Positions 1,701-22,986 of a DNA stretch of 22,986 nt are shown here, one piece after another. A program made the translations under genes and the position numbers. Position 1 is the first letter of the stretch. Each line of letters opens with the position of its first letter. Source of the DNA: a virus; the IMG/VR virus record IMGVR_UViG_3300009034_000994, positions 1 to 22,986 of that record; one strand, 5' to 3'. Under the pieces are notes generated by a model. The model searched no databases. It had not been told where the DNA came from and saw only the letters and a program-made list of their open reading frames with translations.

Positions 1701-2014
1701 CTTTCTTCACCTCTTTTAATTTCTCTATTTTTTTTTCTGTATCGTTAATCTTCTGAATCAAATCTTTTGTCTTGCCATTCTCTTTATTTGCAATCTTGTT
1801 ATTATGCCGATGAATCGCTTTCAAAAAATGTATCCCAGCAATTATTAATAAACCCTCAAGCCATGAATCCGAGTATCCCTAAAATCAATGTATCAGATAA
1901 ATCAGCCTTGCTAAAAAATCTCAACACTACACATACAACAGCCAAAAGACAGAATACTGTAATCCAGAAATACACCGGCTGAAAATTACCCTTACTATAA
2001 AAAAAAGGTTTCAT
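1618..2014 (-). CDS. Holin-like membrane protein, broken by a +1 frame change near 1860-1880
   Basis: The ATG at 2014 (GAGGTG upstream, overlapping the lipoprotein stop) opens a 52-codon frame with MKPFFYSKGNFQPVYFW, a membrane helix (about residues 14-33) and DTLILGILGF, then stops at 1856. The continuation lies in the +1 frame: WLEGLLIIAGIHFLKAIHR completes a second helix and leads into a charged coiled coil (about KDLIQKINDTEKKIEKLKEVKK) ending at 1618. That frame has no ATG, GTG or TTG before its membrane helix, so it cannot easily be a separate gene; the span is 3n+1 bases. Two membrane helices plus a cytoplasmic coil next to a transglycosylase and spanin candidates suggest a holin. The break may be an assembly insertion, a real mutation or frameshifting. 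Confidence 0.5.
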
Positions 2015-2100
2015 AATTCATCACCTCGCCAATTGTTTTTTCCCGGTCGCCAACACGCAACCAAATAAATTAATAAAATTATTACTAATAAAAGTTTCAT
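2011..2100 (-). CDS. 29-aa lipobox peptide, possible o-spanin or lysis lipoprotein
   Basis: The frame starts at 2100, overlapping the transglycosylase stop by ATGA, and ends at 2011, overlapping the next ATG. It begins MKLLLVIILLIYLVAC, a lysine plus hydrophobic signal and a textbook lipobox (LVAC, Cys16), and leaves a mature peptide of only 14 residues (CWRPGKNNWRGDEL). The perfect coupling on both sides argues that it is translated. Known outer-membrane spanins (Rz1 family) are small lipoproteins in lysis cassettes, but most have longer mature parts. It could work with the neighbouring membrane proteins. Confidence 0.6.
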   Translation of the reverse strand: MKLLLVIILLIYLVACWRPGKNNWRGDEL

Positions 2101-2681
2101 TTGCTTAACTCCTGATAAATTTTGTATGTATCGCTAACATAAATTTCTACTCGCCTAATGTAACGACCATGTTTTCTTTTATGAAGGATTGCTCCGTGCC
2201 CTCCATTGTAAGCTGCCAAAGATTTTTTGACATCACCTTTATACCGAATAAGATTATTTCTCAAGACAAGAGTACCGTGTTCAATATTGACATCCGCATT
2301 ATATAATCCTTCAGGTAATCCTTTGTATCCCTGATGCTTTGCATTACCATATAAAATTTGCATAGGACCATAAGACGCATAACATCTTTTTTGTTTTTTT
2401 TCTATTTCAGATAATGTATTCAAGTACCATCGTTGATCTTTTAAGACTTTATAATCTACTCTGTAAGCCCTTGCCTTTTCCTGACTTTCAGTTTTTATAA
2501 TTGCTCGGATTAAATTTGGATCAACATTTCTTAACTTTGACCATTTTCTAATCGAGAACTCAATATCTTCTTGCATACTTTTTAACGTATCTTTTGATGT
2601 ATAAATACTTTCATACGGCATAATTACACCTCCTATCAAGACACACAATAAAAGCAGTTTTTTGATTAAAGGTAAAACCAT
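2097..2681 (-). CDS. Lytic transglycosylase-type endolysin (goose-lysozyme/SLT fold), two candidate starts
   Basis: The protein cleaves peptidoglycan glycan strands. The fold's signature is clear: catalytic Glu65 in IIKTES, YGPMQI at 104-109 and the substrate-groove motif AAYNGG at 156-161. There are two starts. The long form (194 aa, ATG 2681) has a Lys-Lys plus hydrophobic N-terminus (MVLPLIKKLLLLCVLIGGV) like a signal or signal-anchor, but no ribosome binding site at normal distance. The short form (174 aa, ATG 2621, MPYESIYTSK) has a very strong AGGAGG seven bases upstream and no signal. Membrane-tethered and cytosolic forms may both be made. Neighbours are small membrane and lipobox genes, fitting a lysis cassette. 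Enzyme class is secure; substrate details are not. Confidence 0.88.
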   Translation of the reverse strand: MVLPLIKKLLLLCVLIGGVIMPYESIYTSKDTLKSMQEDIEFSIRKWSKLRNVDPNLIRAIIKTESQEKARAYRVDYKVLKDQRWYLNTLSEIEKKQKRCYASYGPMQILYGNAKHQGYKGLPEGLYNADVNIEHGTLVLRNNLIRYKGDVKKSLAAYNGGHGAILHKRKHGRYIRRVEIYVSDTYKIYQELSK

Positions 2682-2688
2682 TTTTCAA

Positions 2689-2826
2689 TTACAATTTCTC
2701 CAATAACTTTAATATATAATAAATTACACCCGGAACCAAAAACATAAGTCCAATAATCCAACGATGATTTTTTTTATGATCCTCAAAATCTTTTTTATCT
2801 CTTGTTGTCATTTTTCCATTTGGCAT
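2689..2826 (-). CDS. 45-aa single-span membrane protein in the lysis cassette
   Basis: ATG at 2826 is preceded by GGAG with an eight-base spacer. A charged N-terminal half (MPNGKMTTRDKKDFEDHKKN) is followed by one membrane helix (about residues 23-41, WIIGLMFLVPGVIYYILKL) and a short basic end. The topology and position directly before the endolysin resemble small holins or antiholins, but size and sequence alone do not prove it. I do not recognise a specific family. Confidence 0.55.
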   Translation of the reverse strand: MPNGKMTTRDKKDFEDHKKNHRWIIGLMFLVPGVIYYILKLLEKL

Positions 2827-2845
2827 TATGATTCTCCACTCTTTT

Positions 2846-2995
2846 TTAAAACTGACTAATACAAACAATCACACAATCACGTGTAGTGTGCTCCCCGTTT
2901 TCGGGGCAAGGCTCATTAGGATTCGCCCCGTCGACATCATTATAATAGTAGTACTTCTCGCAGTCCTCACAATATTTTCTCTGATAATATGTCAT
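2846..2995 (-). CDS. 49-aa Cys-rich peptide, possible zinc-binding
   Basis: The ATG at 2995 overlaps the upstream stop as ATGA, indicating translational coupling. The sequence has CEDC at residues 9-12, Cys30 in EPCPENG and two Cys at 41 and 45 (DCVIVC), enough for a zinc site, in a Tyr-rich context (KYYYYND). It has no signal peptide. It ends the tail gene cluster just before the lysis genes. The role is unknown; a small structural knob or assembly factor is possible. Confidence 0.55.
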   Translation of the reverse strand: MTYYQRKYCEDCEKYYYYNDVDGANPNEPCPENGEHTTRDCVIVCISQF

Positions 2996-3429
2996 AGTTT
3001 CATCACTCCATATATATTCAATGTTGCTCCAGCAATATTGGAAGGTCCTATCGGACCAGCCTTACGGAATTGAACCTCAAGCATAATTTTTCCTGACTTA
3101 TTAGAAAAATAATTTTTGACATTAGTGAAATCAATCGTATCGTCATCAACTCCTCCGAAACTTACTACTCCCACCTCTGCCGCATTATTCTTATCCCATA
3201 ATCGCACATCAATCCCATCAGTACCGAGTGTTCCGCTTGCTGCGATGAAATCCATCGCCTTGATTTTTGTATATCTGAAAAGATCGAGATCGAGTATACC
3301 GCCTCCTATTCGGGCGTAAATTGTTGAGTTCGTCGAATGTTCTTCCGGGACAAGATTTAAGGGAACCAGATTTGCTATCTTTGTATTCAGTTCATAAGAT
3401 AAATTTCTAATATCAAAACTTTCTGCCAT
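2992..3429 (-). CDS. 145-aa tail-associated protein, unknown family
   Basis: Starts at 3429 (MAESFDIRNLSYELNTK) with CGGAG upstream, one base after the hub-like gene. After a short helical start the rest is rich in beta-forming and Gly/Asp residues (DGIDVRLWDKNN, VGVVSFGGVDDDTIDF, LEVQFRKAGPIGP), as in phage beta-sandwich tip or receptor-binding proteins. It has no catalytic motif that I can see. Its place after the baseplate hub and before lysis is where siphoviruses keep tail-tip or fibre accessories. Function is inferred only from position and composition. Confidence 0.6.
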   Translation of the reverse strand: MAESFDIRNLSYELNTKIANLVPLNLVPEEHSTNSTIYARIGGGILDLDLFRYTKIKAMDFIAASGTLGTDGIDVRLWDKNNAAEVGVVSFGGVDDDTIDFTNVKNYFSNKSGKIMLEVQFRKAGPIGPSNIAGATLNIYGVMKL

Positions 3430-14568: not shown

Positions 14569-15300
14569 TTATATCATTGCTCCGTCGAGCATGGGGCTCT
14601 TCAATCCCCCGCCGAGCATTCTAAAACCACCGCAAGGATCGAACTCATCAGCCACATAATTCGGATCAGCCACATAATTCGGGCTATTATAAGTCGTCAA
14701 CGTTCTCCCGTTTCCACTTAGATCAATCTCCGAAGCACAGACCCCACTTTCCTTGTCGAACTTCCATCGTGCTTCAAGACTGGTAGAAACCGAATCACAC
14801 CCTCGTTTTGAATAGAGAATCGAAACCTCGCCGGAACTCAATGCCCTGCTGTAAATACGAAAATCAAACATATCACCGTCAAAATAATTCCAGAGATAAG
14901 CCCTCGCCACCCGCACATCGTTCAGGCCGGTATCAATCTCTTTTGAGAGTGTCGAGGAAATGGAAGCTGGACTTCCGTCAATATAGGCGATCATATCGTC
15001 AACATTTGTTCCATCCAAAACGAAACAAAGATGATGCCAGTTTCCATTAAGTAACGAGCCAGCATTCCATACCCGGAAACCACTGAATACCGAAATGCTA
15101 AAGGTATTCCCTGCGGCGCTTTCAATCTGGCCATAAAACCTTTTGCCAGTGACCTCTGTTCCCCAACCGAAAAAACAATCAAGGTTTGCTGCAGTTTCAA
15201 CCCTGACCCATTGTGCTACTGATCTCTTTGAAGAGCCAGTAACTCCTTTGTATCCAAGAGCAGCTCCGTATTGATTACTACCATTCCATCTTATTGCCAT
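14569..15300 (-). CDS. LamG/concanavalin A-like lectin-fold virion protein, 243 aa
   Basis: ATG 15300 (MAIRWNGSNQYGAALGYKG) is the natural LamG start; the longer frame from TTG 15345 would start inside a terminator hairpin. LamG features are clear: AQWVRVETAAN, GNWHHLCFVLDGT with AYIDG, and the exit motif FDGDMFDFRIYSRALSSGEV, followed by LEARWKFDKESG and a Gly-rich end. Such domains bind carbohydrate or decorate surfaces. It directly follows the capsid gene, so a capsid decoration or adhesion protein is likely. No ribosome binding site precedes the ATG (only CTTAAAAAAATT), so expression should be low or S1-dependent. The C-terminal region holds an 18-base tandem duplication. Confidence 0.75.
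   Translation of the reverse strand: MAIRWNGSNQYGAALGYKGVTGSSKRSVAQWVRVETAANLDCFFGWGTEVTGKRFYGQIESAAGNTFSISVFSGFRVWNAGSLLNGNWHHLCFVLDGTNVDDMIAYIDGSPASISSTLSKEIDTGLNDVRVARAYLWNYFDGDMFDFRIYSRALSSGEVSILYSKRGCDSVSTSLEARWKFDKESGVCASEIDLSGNGRTLTTYNSPNYVADPNYVADEFDPCGGFRMLGGGLKSPMLDGAMI
14647..14682. repeat. Two perfect tandem copies of an 18-base unit in the LamG gene
   Basis: The unit ATCAGCCACATAATTCGG occurs twice head to tail and encodes NYVADPNYVAD in the minus-strand protein. It keeps the frame. This looks like a recent slippage duplication in the linker after the LamG domain. Confidence 0.85.
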
Positions 15301-15309
15301 AATTTTTTT

Positions 15310-15343
15310 AAGAAAGAGAAGAGAGGCAAGAGCCCCTCTTCTC
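15310..15343 (-). terminator. Rho-independent terminator after the major capsid gene
   Basis: GAGAAGAGGGGC (15343-15332), TCTT loop, GCCTCTCTTCTC (15327-15316): twelve pairs with one G-U, followed by TTTCTT. It starts 23 bases after the capsid stop. The U-tract is short, so partial read-through would lower expression of the downstream tail genes relative to the capsid. Confidence 0.7.
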
Positions 15344-15365
15344 AAATTTATTTACCTTTTAATTT

Positions 15366-17852
15366 TTAGCTTATCCCTGCCTGAAGACCGCCATAAAAAC
15401 CACGATAGTCTGTCACGACTCCGCTATACTCATGACGAATCTTATATCGAACAGCGTCGTTTGTGAAAACCTGATCAACACCCGGCTGATCCTGTAAGAA
15501 CATTTCCGGAGTTTCCTTACCATCAAGAAATCCAATGATAAGATAATCCAGAAGAGCCTTGTCTGCCAGGACATACCAGTTATTTTGATCACTTCTCAGA
15601 TACCCTTTTGGTACCGGAAGAACATCAAGAGCCTGATATACCGGGTTCGTACTTTCAACAGTGCCCTGTGCACCCGATGTCGCAACCACCGGTCTCTTTT
15701 CAGAGTCGATGATTACCTTCGAACGACTTCTCAACTCATAAGGTACAAGCAACCATTTTGCCTTGATGTCAATAGGCTCATCACTATCAGCTTCAGTGAA
15801 ATTACCCATCGCCGTTATAGCCGTATCAACCGAATTGAAGTCCAAGGTATCATAAGTTACATTATTGTGATTTGCATGATACAAGGCAATCGAGTCATAT
15901 ATTGTTCCGCCATTAATGGCTCCGCTTGCTGTGGTGTAATTCAGAATCAAATCAAAGACAAACTTCGCTAACGTACGAGCAGCCGCCTGACCCATCTTCT
16001 TGACAAGTTGCTGGATTATTCTCAGGTCGTCGTTCTTGATCATTTCTCTGGTTACCCTGAGAATCTTCCCTCGCTTTGTCACCTTATAGCTTGCCTGCTC
16101 TTCGGATGGACTGACGTATTCAGTATACTCACCATTTTCTAATACAGTTGGAAGGTCTGTTAATCCACCTACCCGGATAAAATACTGGTCCTTATAATCT
16201 GATGGTTTGTCAATCGTGACAAATTTCCGCCAGACCTCGTTGACCGGTACCATCGAGTATATCTTTAACAGTTTCCGGTGAAGAGCATCCCCGAGAGCAT
16301 TGGGATAGTCTGTCGACAATGCTTCGGTGATTCTTCCTCTTCCATCGGGAGAAACATCAATGTCTCCAGTATACTTAATGTAACTTTCCTTAATGCCTCG
16401 AAAAGCAGGAACTTTCGCCCAGTCTTCTTTTTCATCTTCTTCCGGCTCGATGTCAAACATCTTGTACATTGCTATCTGCTTTCTTTGTTTTTCATCAAGA
16501 CCAGTTGTAACATGTTCTGAGCCCATACCTTTCACCTCACCTGATTCGCTCAATTTTGCGAGAATCTCTTTCTCTTCCTTAATTGATTCTTGAAGTTTTT
16601 CTTCATCGAAAACCTGATCCTCGTATTGCTTGCGAATCTTTTCCTTGAGAAGATCGGGAAGAATCTTCTCTTCAGAAAGAATCTCTTTCAGTTTCAAATT
16701 GGATTCACGAACATTTAACTTTTCAAGCGCCTCATCAACGGTTTTCATTTTCTTGCCTAATTCATCCATCTCTTCGGTTTCTTCCTTTTTTTCTTTTTCG
16801 GATTCTCCCATCTTCCCATATTTCTCTTTATACTTTTTGTACTTCTCATCTTTGAACTTCATATCAGCGGCCAGAATCTCTTTGAGCATGTTTGTCGCTT
16901 CCTCGATTTTCTTGTCCTTCAAAAGACCAATGACTTTTTGAAGGTCTGATTTTGTGGACTCCTCCAATTCAGTATCAGAAAGAAGTTCAAAGAGGTCTTT
17001 CTCTGTCTCGGTGAGATTCTCAATCATTTCCTTAATCTGCTCCTGTGATTCTTTCATTTTCTTTTTCTTCTCTTCTTCCTCTTCCTTTTTCTTTTTCTTT
17101 GCCTCTTCTGTCTCTTTCTCCTCTTCTGGTTTCTTTTTCTTTTTTGCCTCAAGAGTTTTGACGAACATATTAAGAACCTCCTCATCGGATTTATCTTCTA
17201 TATTTTCGCCTTCCTTGAGACCGAGAATTTCTGGATTCTCTCGAACCCATTTGATTAACTTATCCATTTTTTTACCTCCCATAGACGCTACCATCCGCAG
17301 GAACTTCCCTCCTGCTGCCGGTAACGTCACCTGGTCTACGGTAGTGACCTCATGTATCTTCTCAACGATATTACCTTTTCTTCCTTCAGCAATACCCGTT
17401 GAAACTTTCGCCTGTGCATCAATCGAAAATCCAAGTAAATCTCTCTTCTTTCCATCCTCCCATGCGTTCTTATAGGTCTCACGCATCTTGCTATCAGTAA
17501 TATGATAGTCAGCAGTGAGTCCATCCTTGCCATCAGTTTTCTCATACCTTACGTTATCAATCCATCCAGTCACATTTTTTGCGAAACCTTGTTTGACAAG
17601 GTTGGCTACAAAGCCGGGCAGATGATTGAAGAAACGATTATCAAACTCATAAGCACAAATTTTCGCACCTTCAAAAAGAGGGATAGCTTCCTTGAGAATT
17701 TTCGGGGAATAGTAAAATCCATTCTGACTCCAACCGGAATCAATGACCTTAATTCTCCAGACCTTTCCGGTCTTCTCGGATTCTTGAATAAGGGCAAGTG
17801 GCAACCAGCCGGAAGATATTTGAGCCAAATCCGTGAAATATAATTCAGGCAT
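15366..17852 (-). CDS. Prohead protease-scaffold-major capsid protein fusion, 828 aa
   Basis: Three regions in order. Residues 1-190: maturation protease (WRIKVIDSGWSQNGFYYSP, candidate catalytic His77 in FFNHLPGF and Ser143 in LLGFSIDA, end VDQVTLPAAGGKFLRMVAS). Residues 196 to about 440: a Lys/Glu-rich coiled-coil scaffold (EEAKKKKKEEEEEKKKK). Residues 443-828: major capsid protein of the Mu gpT-like/HK97-fold type (HRKLLKIYSMVPVNEVWRK, VTKRGKILRVTREMIKND, IALYHANHNNV, DPIDIKAKW-like strand). Single-gene protease/capsid fusions are known in phages; a full three-part chain is less common. AGGAG precedes ATG 17852. Internal ribosome binding sites lie exactly before Met196 and Met443. A promoter and structured leader sit upstream, a terminator downstream. 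Confidence 0.9.
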   Translation of the reverse strand: MPELYFTDLAQISSGWLPLALIQESEKTGKVWRIKVIDSGWSQNGFYYSPKILKEAIPLFEGAKICAYEFDNRFFNHLPGFVANLVKQGFAKNVTGWIDNVRYEKTDGKDGLTADYHITDSKMRETYKNAWEDGKKRDLLGFSIDAQAKVSTGIAEGRKGNIVEKIHEVTTVDQVTLPAAGGKFLRMVASMGGKKMDKLIKWVRENPEILGLKEGENIEDKSDEEVLNMFVKTLEAKKKKKPEEEKETEEAKKKKKEEEEEKKKKMKESQEQIKEMIENLTETEKDLFELLSDTELEESTKSDLQKVIGLLKDKKIEEATNMLKEILAADMKFKDEKYKKYKEKYGKMGESEKEKKEETEEMDELGKKMKTVDEALEKLNVRESNLKLKEILSEEKILPDLLKEKIRKQYEDQVFDEEKLQESIKEEKEILAKLSESGEVKGMGSEHVTTGLDEKQRKQIAMYKMFDIEPEEDEKEDWAKVPAFRGIKESYIKYTGDIDVSPDGRGRITEALSTDYPNALGDALHRKLLKIYSMVPVNEVWRKFVTIDKPSDYKDQYFIRVGGLTDLPTVLENGEYTEYVSPSEEQASYKVTKRGKILRVTREMIKNDDLRIIQQLVKKMGQAAARTLAKFVFDLILNYTTASGAINGGTIYDSIALYHANHNNVTYDTLDFNSVDTAITAMGNFTEADSDEPIDIKAKWLLVPYELRSRSKVIIDSEKRPVVATSGAQGTVESTNPVYQALDVLPVPKGYLRSDQNNWYVLADKALLDYLIIGFLDGKETPEMFLQDQPGVDQVFTNDAVRYKIRHEYSGVVTDYRGFYGGLQAGIS
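16524..16538 (-). promoter_or_regulatory. Internal ribosome binding site and ATG at the scaffold-capsid junction
   Basis: GAGGTG (16538-16533), spacer AAAGGT, then ATG 16526 in frame (Met443, MGSEHVTTGLDEKQ). Initiation here would make the capsid protein alone, 386 aa. The site falls exactly where the coiled coil ends. Confidence 0.5.
17265..17280 (-). promoter_or_regulatory. Internal ribosome binding site and ATG at the protease-scaffold junction
   Basis: GGGAGGT (17280-17274), spacer of six A, then ATG 17267 in frame (Met196, MDKLIKWVRENPEI). Initiation here would make scaffold-capsid without protease, comparable to lambda C/Nu3 nested translation. Confidence 0.55.
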
Positions 17853-18161: not shown

Positions 18162-18332
18162 CTATTTTTTTTGATAATATTTGCAATCATTATTTGAATT
18201 CAAATCCTTTTGAGCTTCTTGATAGTGATACTGACTTTCTTTATATCTCTCTGAACTATGGCAAGAATAACAATAAGGACGTAAATGTTGAGGAATAGAC
18301 CATCTGCAATTTTTACAAAATACGTTCTTCAT
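18162..18332 (-). CDS. 56-aa Cys-rich, probably zinc-binding protein
   Basis: ATG 18332 overlaps the stop of the LigD-like gene as ATGA behind GGGAGG, so it is translationally coupled to it. MKNVFCKNCRWS has CxxC at 6-9, YCYSCHSS a second CxxC at 21-24, and NDCKYYQKK a Cys at 50; His residues lie between. Two CxxC knuckles fit one zinc site. Similar tiny Cys-rich proteins occur in phage head modules. Coupling to the enzyme gene suggests it may be a partner or DNA-binding accessory; this is inference. Confidence 0.65.
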   Translation of the reverse strand: MKNVFCKNCRWSIPQHLRPYCYSCHSSERYKESQYHYQEAQKDLNSNNDCKYYQKK

Positions 18333-19204
18333 CGTTTCCCTCCCGGTCCCACCGAACGTTTCAAAATCCATATTTCGCTTTTCGGGTCTTCTCGAACCAG
18401 AACCTTGAGCCCTTTGAAACTTTTCCCCTGAAAACGTAGATGAATAAAATTTTCGGTCTTCTCAATTAGTTTCGCTGTACCTCTATCTTCAATCTCATAG
18501 TTCATAGGAATTTTCTCATTCGGATTCTTTGGATGCGCTGCGGGAATCTCTCCCTCGAAAGTCAGCCAGTTCTTGAAGTCTCCATTCGGTTTTGTGTTCT
18601 CTGTTGTTAATGTACCAATAGTCTCTTCCTCGAAAACAGGATTGCTGTCAGTCTCAAACCTTTGTAATTTCTTCTCACCGAAATCCAAAAATAATTCATA
18701 ATGAATTTTCGGCATACCCCTAACAACTGTCGGGCCTTTCCACCATGCCCGGCTCAATGTCCATTTGACTTCTCTTGCTTCTTGGATTTTCAGCTTGCGA
18801 AACGGGTGGTCCTTATTTTCAATCAGCCAATTGAACGCCTTATCCATCATCGAAAGTCTATTCTTTCTTTCAAGCCCTTTTCCCCACCAATGCAACTCTT
18901 TTGGAATTTTTTCTTCCCACTCTTTCGGAATACTACTCATTCCGTCAGGTGGAACATAATCCCTTCTTGTCCTTCCCCTGCGAGTCAAAAGATAAGGAAT
19001 CTGACTCTCTGCATCAGCCTTTGCCCACCAAGCCATCCATACCAGTTTCCCTTTCCCCACTTTTTCCCATTCCTTTCTTGCGTCCGTGCTCGAAGTACTC
19101 CTTGAAGTATGTCTTTTGTGTGCCGAATTCTTTTTGGTATCCTTTCTCAACATGATAGAGAAATCCCGGCCCTTCGGCTGTCGCACCAACCTCACCCGGA
19201 TCAA
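18329..19204 (-). CDS. C-terminal part of the LigD-like enzyme: rest of phosphoesterase-like domain 1 plus domain 2
   Basis: The frame is open from 19204, but residues before about position 43 overlap the ligase frame and look non-coding; sensible protein starts near 19080 (KEWEKVGKGKLVWMAWW). QIPYLLTRRGRTRRDYVPP completes the first phosphoesterase-like domain begun in the other frame. From about 147 a second copy follows: TLSRAWWKGPTVV, IHYELFLD (His168, Glu170), LTFEGEIP, IEDRGTAKL, and the LigD-type end FKGLKVLVREDPKSEIWILK. LigD phosphoesterases use His-His-Asp-His; here the first His and the EDHP His are not evident, so activity is doubtful. No ribosome binding site suits a separate start; I favour one protein with 19014-22121 (total 3n+1 bases). 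Confidence 0.65.
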   Translation of the reverse strand: MIRVRLVRQPKGRDFSIMLRKDTKKNSAHKRHTSRSTSSTDARKEWEKVGKGKLVWMAWWAKADAESQIPYLLTRRGRTRRDYVPPDGMSSIPKEWEEKIPKELHWWGKGLERKNRLSMMDKAFNWLIENKDHPFRKLKIQEAREVKWTLSRAWWKGPTVVRGMPKIHYELFLDFGEKKLQRFETDSNPVFEEETIGTLTTENTKPNGDFKNWLTFEGEIPAAHPKNPNEKIPMNYEIEDRGTAKLIEKTENFIHLRFQGKSFKGLKVLVREDPKSEIWILKRSVGPGGKR

Positions 19205-22121
19205 CCTTACCAGAAAACTTTAGCCAAGCCACCGGCTGTCTCGCTTTTGGAAAAACAAGAACTTTTTTTTCTGGCATACGGGGATCAAATTTCCACAACT
19301 TATTTTCATAGAAATGATTATCCATCTTTTTCGCTTTCTCTGCCGTATCAATATCATCCTCAATACCAAGAGTTTTCTTTGCCTTACTCACCTCTCCCGG
19401 CTGCGGGCCATCGGCAATAGTTATTCCGTTCAAAAAATCATTCACCTTGAACCTATGGTCGGCATGGACGCTTTCTCCTCGCCAGTGATGTTCCCAGAGC
19501 GTTCCTTTAGTTTCTCCTCCGGACGGTATATCTTTAAGCTGTTCTCTGACCGCAGAATAAGCAATTCCACCTTGAACGGAGCCCCCACTCCCCCCTTCTC
19601 TGCTATAATCCATTTGATTTTCCACAATCTTTTCCAAAGATAAAACATCAGCTTCGGAAATAGAATCATCCCAAAATAAATTGAGTTCTTCACATTCCTT
19701 AATATTTTTTTTCCTTTCTTCATTTAAAAACTCCTCGCCAAAAGATTCAGCTAATGCCATATCATAGTCATCAAGCTCACCTAAAAGCGGAAAAGATTTT
19801 GCAAGCCAATCTGAATAGTTCTCAACATTAACGGATTCTTTCAACTTCCCCAAGGCAACCTCGTACCGTTTTGGATACCGCTTCTCCTCGATTTCTCCAC
19901 TGGTCGCCTTCACAATCCTATTGGCAGTATCAACTGTATCGGGCCGGGTCTTGTCCTCACGAAACTCAATCGGTCTCGGTGCCCACCAATTAAACCAAAC
20001 CTCTCCTGTATCGGGGTCAGTATATCGGTTAAGATTGACAAAAGCTACTCGAATTATTCCACCTACCGGAACCATTATCGCCCGGCCATTTTTCTCGAAC
20101 CTCACATTATAAGTTCTTCCCACCGGAACTTTCTTTTCCCCATCCCGAATAACACAAAGATAATTATACGAATCCGTTCCCTTGACCCGGTGAATCTCAA
20201 TCACCTCTGCGTCAATATCAGCTTCTTTTTTGAACTTCATCCAATCCCCGGTCATTCCGCTTAACGGATATATGCTATTCCATAGCTTGAGCATCGAACC
20301 TTCCGAACCTTTAATTTCAGAAAAATGATTCATAGCATCCTTTAATTCCTTTTCCGTATTCGCCAGATGAAAATCTGCTACCTTGAAAGCCTTGCCGGAT
20401 TTAAATTTCTTCATCGACTCTTTCCTCTCTTGCAAGGTTTTCTTATGTATATCTTCGTTCAAATACGGGGCATCGAAAACATTCGCCGTGTACGGACTAT
20501 CATCAACGGGAGTCTTCGCATGAGCATAGCCGGAAACATCCGACCGTCCAATATGCTGCCCTTTTCTTTCACCGGTCACCTCGGCGTCAGCAACAAAAGG
20601 AAATCCTTGAGCTTTTGCTTCTTTGACTATCGTGGGAAATCTATGTGTTACATCCCCTCCATCTTCACTCCATACCTTCACCTTATCATCAGAATGTATC
20701 TGTACTCTGAACCCGTCGAATTTCTGGTCAACATGTACCGAAGGAAACTTATCTCCTTTCATCCACTTCTGCTTCACTCTCTCAATCGCACCCTCGACAG
20801 AATAAACTTCTTCCTTTCTGTAACCTGCTATTCCTTTCGGTTGTACGAAAAATCTGAAAGGCTGCAAGCTGTCACTTTTACGACTCTGCTCTGCTTGCCT
20901 TTTTCTGGTAATGTCCGTAATTCTCTGTTCTCTTAAAACACTCTCGGCAAGTTCGGAAAGTCCTTCCCTTGCCATTGCCATTTTGATTAATTTCCTTTCT
21001 TTTGGCGGAATCATTTCGATCTTGAGAATTGCAAAAGGTACATAATTTGTGAAGGGGCCAGTGTAATCAGAAATAAGATGTATCTTGTCTTTTAATTTCG
21101 GAGGAAGAAAAGATTGCAGCCGAAAATTAACAGCATCAAGAAACTTTGTATCGGAAGAATCGTGATTAATGTGAATGTCAATATCCTTACCCCATCCACT
21201 CACAACACTCCCCCCGATGAAAGAAAGAAAAGGATTCCGTATAGCAAACCCATCTTGCCAGAAGTTCATCAGTTCACTCAACTTAACCTTATCATCAAGT
21301 CCATCCTTTGTCTCGGTTACAAACTTCAGGGATAATCTATCCAGCTCCGTAACCGGCCTATGTTCAAGTTTTCTTCTCCGCATTTCTTCAATGATTAATG
21401 TATGCTTGTCGATAATTCCTTCGTGTGGAGGTTTACCGGTCTCCTGCGAAAATCCTGCAGATTCGCCGTGAATCTCTGCATGAAGTTTTATGATTTCTGC
21501 ATCGGAAAGCTTTTGCAAATTCCAGTCTTTCGGAAGAAACGTGGATTCAAAAAATTTTATTGATTCGATCATCCTTATTGGACCAATCTCCTTCGGATTC
21601 TCAAAAGGAATGAACTCACGAATTTTATAATAATATAAATTCTCTCTTTGCCCAACCTCTGATTCGGCTGTTCTATGCTCCTCGAATCTTTTTACGAATT
21701 CATCTTTATTGATTTGCTCGGATTCATAACACCTTACAAATCCATAGGCAAGATTCCCGCTTGAAAGTAATCCCATCTCTGTTAATCTGTCAAACTTGCA
21801 ACGGTAGACTATCGCTTGCTTTTTCCCTGTCCATATCAGCTCCCCGTGTGGCGGGTCAAGATACGGACCTCCTCTTATCGTTCCCGCAAGACACTCTCTT
21901 AATAATCCCAAGGTCTCGGTTTTCATTTGGTCAATTTGAAATGTCACCTCACCTAACTCAAGTATTCTTTTCACAAGCTCTGTTGCTGATTCAACTACAT
22001 TCTCTATTCCATCAAGTTCGGTTTCATCGCCTTTCTTTGCAAGCGAATATTCTTCAGCCAAATCCCGAAAAGCTTCGGCAAGTATTTTGCTGTCAGTTTC
22101 TTTTGACCAGTCTCGAGGCAT
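19014..22121 (-). CDS. Multidomain NTase-ATP-dependent DNA ligase-LigD phosphoesterase-like protein
   Basis: ATG 22121 overlaps the upstream stop (TAATG). Domains over 1035 aa: ASCH/PUA-like about 85-195 (PPHGELIWTGKKQAIV, GLLSSGNLAYGFVRCYES); a helical link with EEMRRRKLEH; Pol-beta-type nucleotidyltransferase about 295-375 (GGS at 303-305, DID at 313-315, Glu369). The ATP-dependent ligase is about 430-740: motif I KFDGFR (Lys467), FDAPYL (Asp550), SEGSMLKLW (Glu607), DWMKFK (Lys629/631), then an OB fold with REDK (721-724). From 871 a LigD phosphoesterase-like domain begins (HHWRGESVHADHRF with His879, His886, Asp888; LKFSGKVDPGEVGAT). It ends off-pattern after EYFEHG, where a +1 change leads into 18329-19204. 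It lies between minor head and capsid genes, so virion packaging is plausible. All ligase catalytic residues are present. Confidence 0.85.
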   Translation of the reverse strand: MPRDWSKETDSKILAEAFRDLAEEYSLAKKGDETELDGIENVVESATELVKRILELGEVTFQIDQMKTETLGLLRECLAGTIRGGPYLDPPHGELIWTGKKQAIVYRCKFDRLTEMGLLSSGNLAYGFVRCYESEQINKDEFVKRFEEHRTAESEVGQRENLYYYKIREFIPFENPKEIGPIRMIESIKFFESTFLPKDWNLQKLSDAEIIKLHAEIHGESAGFSQETGKPPHEGIIDKHTLIIEEMRRRKLEHRPVTELDRLSLKFVTETKDGLDDKVKLSELMNFWQDGFAIRNPFLSFIGGSVVSGWGKDIDIHINHDSSDTKFLDAVNFRLQSFLPPKLKDKIHLISDYTGPFTNYVPFAILKIEMIPPKERKLIKMAMAREGLSELAESVLREQRITDITRKRQAEQSRKSDSLQPFRFFVQPKGIAGYRKEEVYSVEGAIERVKQKWMKGDKFPSVHVDQKFDGFRVQIHSDDKVKVWSEDGGDVTHRFPTIVKEAKAQGFPFVADAEVTGERKGQHIGRSDVSGYAHAKTPVDDSPYTANVFDAPYLNEDIHKKTLQERKESMKKFKSGKAFKVADFHLANTEKELKDAMNHFSEIKGSEGSMLKLWNSIYPLSGMTGDWMKFKKEADIDAEVIEIHRVKGTDSYNYLCVIRDGEKKVPVGRTYNVRFEKNGRAIMVPVGGIIRVAFVNLNRYTDPDTGEVWFNWWAPRPIEFREDKTRPDTVDTANRIVKATSGEIEEKRYPKRYEVALGKLKESVNVENYSDWLAKSFPLLGELDDYDMALAESFGEEFLNEERKKNIKECEELNLFWDDSISEADVLSLEKIVENQMDYSREGGSGGSVQGGIAYSAVREQLKDIPSGGETKGTLWEHHWRGESVHADHRFKVNDFLNGITIADGPQPGEVSKAKKTLGIEDDIDTAEKAKKMDNHFYENKLWKFDPRMPEKKVLVFPKARQPVAWLKFSGKVDPGEVGATAEGPGFLYHVEKGYQKEFGTQKTYFKEYFEHGRKKGMGKSGERETGMDGLVGKG

Positions 22122-22809: not shown

Positions 22810-22986
22810 CTATCCTCCGGGCGGAAACAAAACCTCCACACATCCACAATTAATTACATTCTCTGCACCACCGGCGCCGTCATGTGGATGATCCATTCTC
22901 TTGTATGTCGTCGCTCCTTTTGGGTCACCCGTCGCCCTTGCCCGAACCTCAAACTTTTTTTTGAAAGGAATAGGATTCGCAAGATA
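22810..22986 (-). CDS. C-terminus of a Mu gpF / SPP1 gp7-like minor head protein (partial)
   Basis: The frame enters from the right edge and ends with TAG at 22812-22810, giving 58 residues. KKKFEVRARATGDPKGATTY and MDHPHDGAGGAENVINCGCV match the typical end of phage head morphogenesis proteins (MuF family), where a His-Pro ... VINCxC segment closes the domain. These proteins sit next to the portal and are packaged in the head. This fixes the window as the region just after portal/MuF. Confidence 0.75.
   Translation of the reverse strand, partial: YLANPIPFKKKFEVRARATGDPKGATTYKRMDHPHDGAGGAENVINCGCVEVLFPPGG

Follow-up and report, generated by a model that had tools for sequence, protein, structure and literature searches.

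We lean towards placing the protein encoded at positions 18329-22121 of the window in a monophyletic and so far undescribed family of multi-enzyme 'polyvalent' proteins encoded in the head module, which would be made late, packed into the virion and ejected to protect or seal the incoming DNA. The window is the whole of the IMG/VR record analysed, about 23 kb in length (22,987 bases). Core parts of the family are a Pol-beta-type nucleotidyltransferase (NTase), an ATP-dependent DNA ligase (LIG) and two or three LigD-type 3′-phosphoesterase (PE) domains, commonly accompanied by an ASCH domain. The module is a variant of the polyvalent phage proteins and not a LigD. The finding extends beyond the window and is both real and larger than first reported, and our literature searches for the module family returned no description of it.

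The sequence-only reading had treated 18329-22121 as a single reading unit. This has to be corrected, as the region consists of two frames with a break inside the first PE domain (PE1). P0001 (19014-22121, minus strand, 1035 aa) holds the ASCH domain, the NTase, the ATP-dependent DNA ligase and the first part of PE1, while P0002 (18329-19204, minus strand), which lies in a different frame, holds the last strand of PE1 and the second PE domain (PE2). The break (19075..19090, minus strand) corresponds to about 38 nt, one base short of 13 codons, that the nearest relative, L007, has and the window lacks. L007, which is 55% identical, reads through the join with 13 extra residues, KRYYGRWVVRKIP, and the virus ANMV-1 also reads through it in one frame. 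Codon-position changes relative to L007 amount to 0.34/0.23/0.62 and 0.28/0.21/0.58 on the two sides of the break, revealing protein-like constraint on both and suggesting that the break is a recent mutation or an assembly error. No short repeats able to explain the 38-nt gap were found. IMG/VR contained no strain-level copies spanning the break, so that an assembly artefact and a real deletion look alike here.

The individual domain calls of that reading were borne out. The ASCH domain (21588..21950, minus strand; about residues 58-178 of P0001) was recognised by the family profile and PF04266; the only good PDB matches of this profile are to the ASCH-type protein TTHA0113 (2dp9/1wk2, E 2e-6), and Pfam ASCH was detected in 7 of 31 family members. 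The Pol-beta-superfamily NTase (20982..21293, minus strand; about residues 277-380) carries a GGS...DID motif comprising GG303-304, D313 and D315, with the third Asp not kept. All 59 PDB chains matched by the NTase family profile belong to the Pol-beta superfamily, including Pol beta, Pol mu, TdT, aminoglycoside adenylyltransferase and the MNT antitoxin, the matches being individually weak (best E 0.028). Both the NTase and the ASCH identities are profile-based and do not come from a separate fold search. As proposed from the sequence, a Pol-beta-type NTase thus stands where LigD has its polymerase; Pfam scans recognised no AEP polymerase domain in the proteins scanned.

The ligase, comprising adenylation and OB domains (19956..20744, minus strand; residues 460-722 of P0001), has its nucleophile K467 in a KFDG motif. 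It matches PF01068 over residues 461-631 (E 7e-18), and the ligase profile matches the archaeal ligase 4eq5 with an E of 2.6e-29. The predicted structure of P0001 has a mean pLDDT of 74, most ligase blocks exceeding 90. Structural comparison recovered the expected fold, the predicted ligase part aligning with the Archaeoglobus ligase 3gde (VIA Z 25.1, 301 aligned, rmsd 13.7, the large rmsd reflecting a different relative pose of the two domains) and with human Lig1 6p0a (VIA Z 24.5, 309 aligned, rmsd 3.1). With its KxDG nucleophile, the motifs through KxK and an OB fold, it has all the hallmarks of an ATP-dependent DNA ligase. No counterpart of the N-terminal DNA-binding domain of archaeal ligases was recognised in the module, where the NTase occupies that place.

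The first part of PE1 (19083..19502, minus strand; residues 874-1013 of P0001) carries the signature H879-x-R881-G-x-S-x-H886-x-D888-x-R890, and alignment with L007 and ANMV-1 places its last strand in the P0002 frame (18980..19078, minus strand; RKEWEKVGKGKLVWMAWW...). All five PDB sequence matches of the PE profile are LigD-type PE domains. PE2 (18350..18769, minus strand) has a LigD-PE fold, its catalytic His motif being lost in the window's clade. P0002 matches both the C-terminus of the ANMV-1 ligase protein and the Korarchaeum LigD-type phosphoesterase 3p43 (E 7e-4). In the predicted structure of L007 PE1-PE2 (pLDDT 85), the PE2 equivalent (residues 270-412) likewise proved to have a PE fold, matching six LigD-PE entries with Z of 15.6, 15.0, 13.4, 12.9, 12.2 and 11.8 before the next row at 4.6, with 3p43 again on top (VIA Z 15.6). 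PADLOC detected no defence model among the window proteins and returned only methyltransferase models, for P0008.

Within the window, the module is flanked by a MuF fragment on one side and a fused protease-capsid gene on the other, in agreement with the placement in a capsid operon noted initially. The C-terminal fragment of a MuF-like head protein (22810..22986, minus strand; ...RMDHPHDGAGGAENVINCGCVEVLFPPGG) lies at the contig end; it was assigned by motif reading and BLAST, the best match being the PhiCh1 gpC head morphogenesis protein with a weak E of 0.025. The next large gene on the other side (15366..17852, minus strand) encodes a prohead protease-scaffold-major capsid protein fusion (PF25209, E 8.6e-38; phrog_133, phrog_4523). 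This fusion is 49% identical to the product of L007:4490-6844, whose N-terminal part matches the head maturation protease phrog_15531 (E 3.8e-14). Immediately following the capsid gene, 14569-15345 codes for a Concanavalin A/LamG-like lectin domain (PF13385, E 1.6e-16). Small neighbouring ORFs had been put forward as possible partners of the enzyme, a suggestion that found no support, the four small window ORFs having no relatives among the fetched loci.

An exact-pattern scan using the window protein alone gave no matches, and the family was reached through alignments with ANMV-1 and two further relatives. A four-member profile retrieved 77 viral loci, and another query gave 18, in part the same; six domain profiles were then run across all reading frames of the loci. 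About 88 viral loci bear the module, corresponding to 51 clusters at 70% identity, and the NTase, the ligase and PE1 occur together in 35 of the 40 untruncated clusters, in at least three orders (NTase-LIG-PE, NTase-PE-LIG and LIG-NTase-PE). Active sites are well kept across the family: the ligase Lys in 99%, the KxDG Gly in 100% and the motif IV Glu-Gly in 99-100%; the NTase Gly in 100% and each residue of Asp-x-Asp in 99%; and the PE1 His, His, Asp and Arg in 100%, 100%, 100% and 99%, respectively. The third NTase Asp (YDL) is common in the family and missing in the window, L007 and L008. Extra copies within a single protein, in most cases a third PE domain, account for 28 PE2-type matches; 12 of these keep the H-x5-8-H-x-D-x-R spacing and others are spaced longer. 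A match upstream of the XkdF protease of PhiCh1 was rejected as a PE domain, as it crosses stop codons.

Several ligase genes are interrupted. An intein with a LAGLIDADG domain lies inside the ligase of L055:5524-10092, and the same interruption of about 310 aa occurs in L067, L068 and L082. The ligase domain is split across two adjacent genes in L053, L057, L063, L064, L065 and L076, with the NTase between ligase and PE, while in L023:7924-13316 the ligase halves stand 2.1 kb apart with small ORFs between them, possibly an intron or a split intein.

ANMV-1, which comes from a methane-seep sample and has been assigned an archaeal host (PMC4372165), encodes a true member of the family. Its AJP62006 product has the NTase-ligase-PE-PE order in one frame, lacks the ASCH domain of the window protein and is annotated merely as a DNA ligase; the gene is flanked by one for a portal protein and one whose product has a MuF-like C-terminus. 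The word 'ligase' is absent from the main text of the ANMV-1 description (PMC4372165) and of the other virus papers examined. The ANMV-1 gene at 1913-3193 of KP703175, annotated as a MutT-like phage hydrolase, codes for a portal protein (PF06381, E 3e-22).

If homologues had been confined to replication modules, as the sequence-only reading itself had warned, its virion-enzyme idea would have suffered; they lie instead next to genes for terminase, portal, MuF, prohead protease and capsid, with fusion to the protease a frequent arrangement, so that the idea is supported by context. A recognised head gene is fused to the module or at most 5 genes away in at least 38 of the 51 clusters under strict profiles and in 47 of 51 under looser clustering; the lower count was taken from the strict profiles because a single-linkage cluster (c0, 'portal') was contaminated by shared domains. 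Strict profiles missed ANMV-1 and L005, yet portal and capsid are present in both by Pfam. Pfam and PHROG identified the neighbour clusters as terminase, portal (PF04860, E 3.5e-37), MuF (PF04233, E 3.7e-8), prohead protease S78/XkdF (PF04586, E 3.4e-9) and capsid (PF25209, E 1.5e-15), the usual order being terminase - portal - MuF - module - protease - capsid. In 12 clusters the prohead protease XkdF is fused to the module. The fusion in L003 reads C5 methyltransferase - ligase - PE - PE - XkdF and that in L019 reads NTase - D12 methyltransferase - ligase - PE - PE - XkdF, whereas the extra domains in L008 are a metallo-beta-lactamase fold and a D12 methyltransferase; some relatives also add a 2H domain, and ASCH also occurs at the C-terminus of portal proteins. 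Between MuF and the ligase, L003:7637-10834 codes for 2′-5′ RNA ligase (2H) and D12 methyltransferase domains with ASCH and NTase profile matches, and L036:5368-6198, between terminase and portal, resembles a DNA repair exonuclease gene (phrog_7339, E 5e-29).

These fusions bear on where the enzyme would act. A late enzyme could work in the producing cell, sealing nicks or trimming concatemer ends before or during packing by the terminase, and never be ejected. Its late head-module site adjoining terminase and portal would fit such a role, as would its DNA-specific ligase fold; we nevertheless think it unlikely, since it leaves unexplained both the fusion to a prohead protease, which normally acts inside the procapsid, and the ASCH-portal fusions. 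Protease fusion suggests rather a DNA-repair kit that is loaded into the particle and injected with the genome. A point against delivery is that cleavage may remove the fused protease ahead of assembly.

Module ligases group in a single clade (99/98 support) that excludes both the two solo viral ligases and the ten cellular ligases sampled, a small set. By profile score they are nearest to archaeal replicative ligases, not LigD. Matches in Daviesbacteria were rejected as family members, being generic ligases. Among the 38 ligase-bearing records, the module ligase is the only PF01068 ligase in 36 (two split genes counted as one) and could thus also serve replication. This would be expected of an ordinary viral replication or repair ligase lying by chance among head genes, a reading that we hold to be very unlikely, because the placement and the protease fusion recur in deeply diverged viruses, two viruses bear a separate solo ligase outside the module clade, and an NTase stands where archaeal ligases have their N-terminal DNA-binding domain.

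The viruses of the family are tailed and most likely have archaea as hosts, and the archaeal host of the window virus is deduced from its relatives. Genome bins with true members are mostly from methane- and alkane-associated archaea (Methanosarcinales, Methanophagales and Archaeoglobales), and one Omnitrophota and one Planctomycetota bin (binning unchecked) also carry true members. Wherever context is visible, the members in bins lie in head modules. PE-profile matches occurred in 6 of 117 genomes searched from two archaeal classes, suggesting that the module is accessory there. The copies in the archaeal bins G049 (contig 138), G050 (contig 230) and G132 (contig 99) contain in-frame stops, mostly TGA, pointing to decay, frameshift or recoding.

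The combination of ligase and phosphoesterase in one polypeptide, together with the PE fold and the H-H-D-R metal-site residues, recalls the LigD/NHEJ phosphoesterases of bacteria and archaea. The module differs from LigD in having a Pol-beta NTase in place of the AEP polymerase and two or three PE copies. LigD residues H42, H48, D50 and R52 are kept at 99-100%, and the full LigD set is not: the PE1 positions equivalent to His84 and Tyr88, both essential for Pseudomonas LigD PE (PMC8656161), are Gln/Glu and Trp, which leaves room for a different PE activity. No Ku turned up in 49 records, some of which may be fragments (a positive control in Bacillus subtilis was detected). Ku-dependent NHEJ as in the mycobacteriophages Omega and Corndog, the analogy drawn at the outset, has the LigD-type PE domains to recommend it and is scarcely credible given the absence of Ku from these records and of a recognised AEP domain from the proteins scanned, and a ligase that is not LigD-like by profile score.

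A closer likeness is to the polyvalent proteins (Iyer et al. 2017, PMC5512222), which the passages of that survey relevant here portray as large multi-enzyme polypeptides that portal-terminase viruses encode among their head genes, that bear methyltransferase, 2H and NTase-type domains and that are linked to MuF and portal. Like them, the module joins disparate enzymatic domains in one polypeptide (ASCH, NTase, ligase and PE, with methyltransferase, 2H, metallo-beta-lactamase fold and protease in relatives) and lies in or beside the head genes of portal-terminase viruses. Its fused protease is a prohead protease, in contrast to the zincin described in those passages; general Pfam scans of representative proteins detected no zincin MPTase or ArdC hub domains. 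The same passages name RNA ligases only, with no DNA ligase or LigD-type PE, give the Pol-beta NTase for conjugative elements only and report a paucity in archaea. The resemblance of the ASCH and 2H domains and of the MuF/portal context to the effectors treated in that part of the survey would also suit an effector directed at the host or at its defences, ejected in the manner of MuF-linked toxins and using its NTase, ASCH, 2H and PE domains against host RNA, tRNA or signalling nucleotides instead of viral DNA. The ligase is of the DNA type with an OB fold, and the fused C5 and D12 DNA methyltransferases point to DNA, making such a role quite unlikely.

The site in the head module, the fusions to protease and methyltransferases and the domain shared with portal proteins together suggest a protein that is targeted to the head and acts on the incoming genome; its packaging, ejection, activity and substrates we infer. 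On the reading that we favour, the protein would be made late, together with MuF, protease and capsid, and would enter the procapsid, where the protease would release it; in many viruses the prohead protease would carry it in as its own N-terminal portion. The released enzyme would remain with the packaged DNA and be ejected alongside it. In the new host, the PE domains would clean 3′ ends, extension or marking of ends or nucleotides may fall to the NTase, the ligase would seal nicks or cohesive ends and the fused methyltransferases would mark the DNA, with the outcome that the incoming genome is protected and circularised ahead of host nucleases. T4-type internal proteins are packed in the head, ejected and protect DNA. 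P1 DarB, as cited in the part of PMC5512222 used here, is also head-packaged, ejected and protective. By analogy, the module protein may share head packing and ejection to guard incoming DNA with these proteins, from which its proposed activity, sealing and end processing, differs.

For archaeal viruses, little is known of the sealing and protection of linear tailed-virus genomes just after entry. We conjecture, with a little less than even confidence, that a widespread class of archaeal tailed viruses uses the prohead protease (and the portal) as a cargo carrier, loading a genome-repairing and genome-marking multi-enzyme (ligase, end-cleaning phosphoesterase, nucleotidyltransferase and DNA methyltransferases) for injection and thereby possessing a virion-borne, Ku-free end-sealing system. 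If true, particle-borne DNA ligase and end-processing enzymes, targeted by fusion to the maturation protease, would provide a concrete mechanism. It would also extend polyvalent proteins to archaeal viruses, where the passages cited report them as scarce (PMC5512222), and would be a source of new joining enzymes, of which some may come from hot or anaerobic environments.
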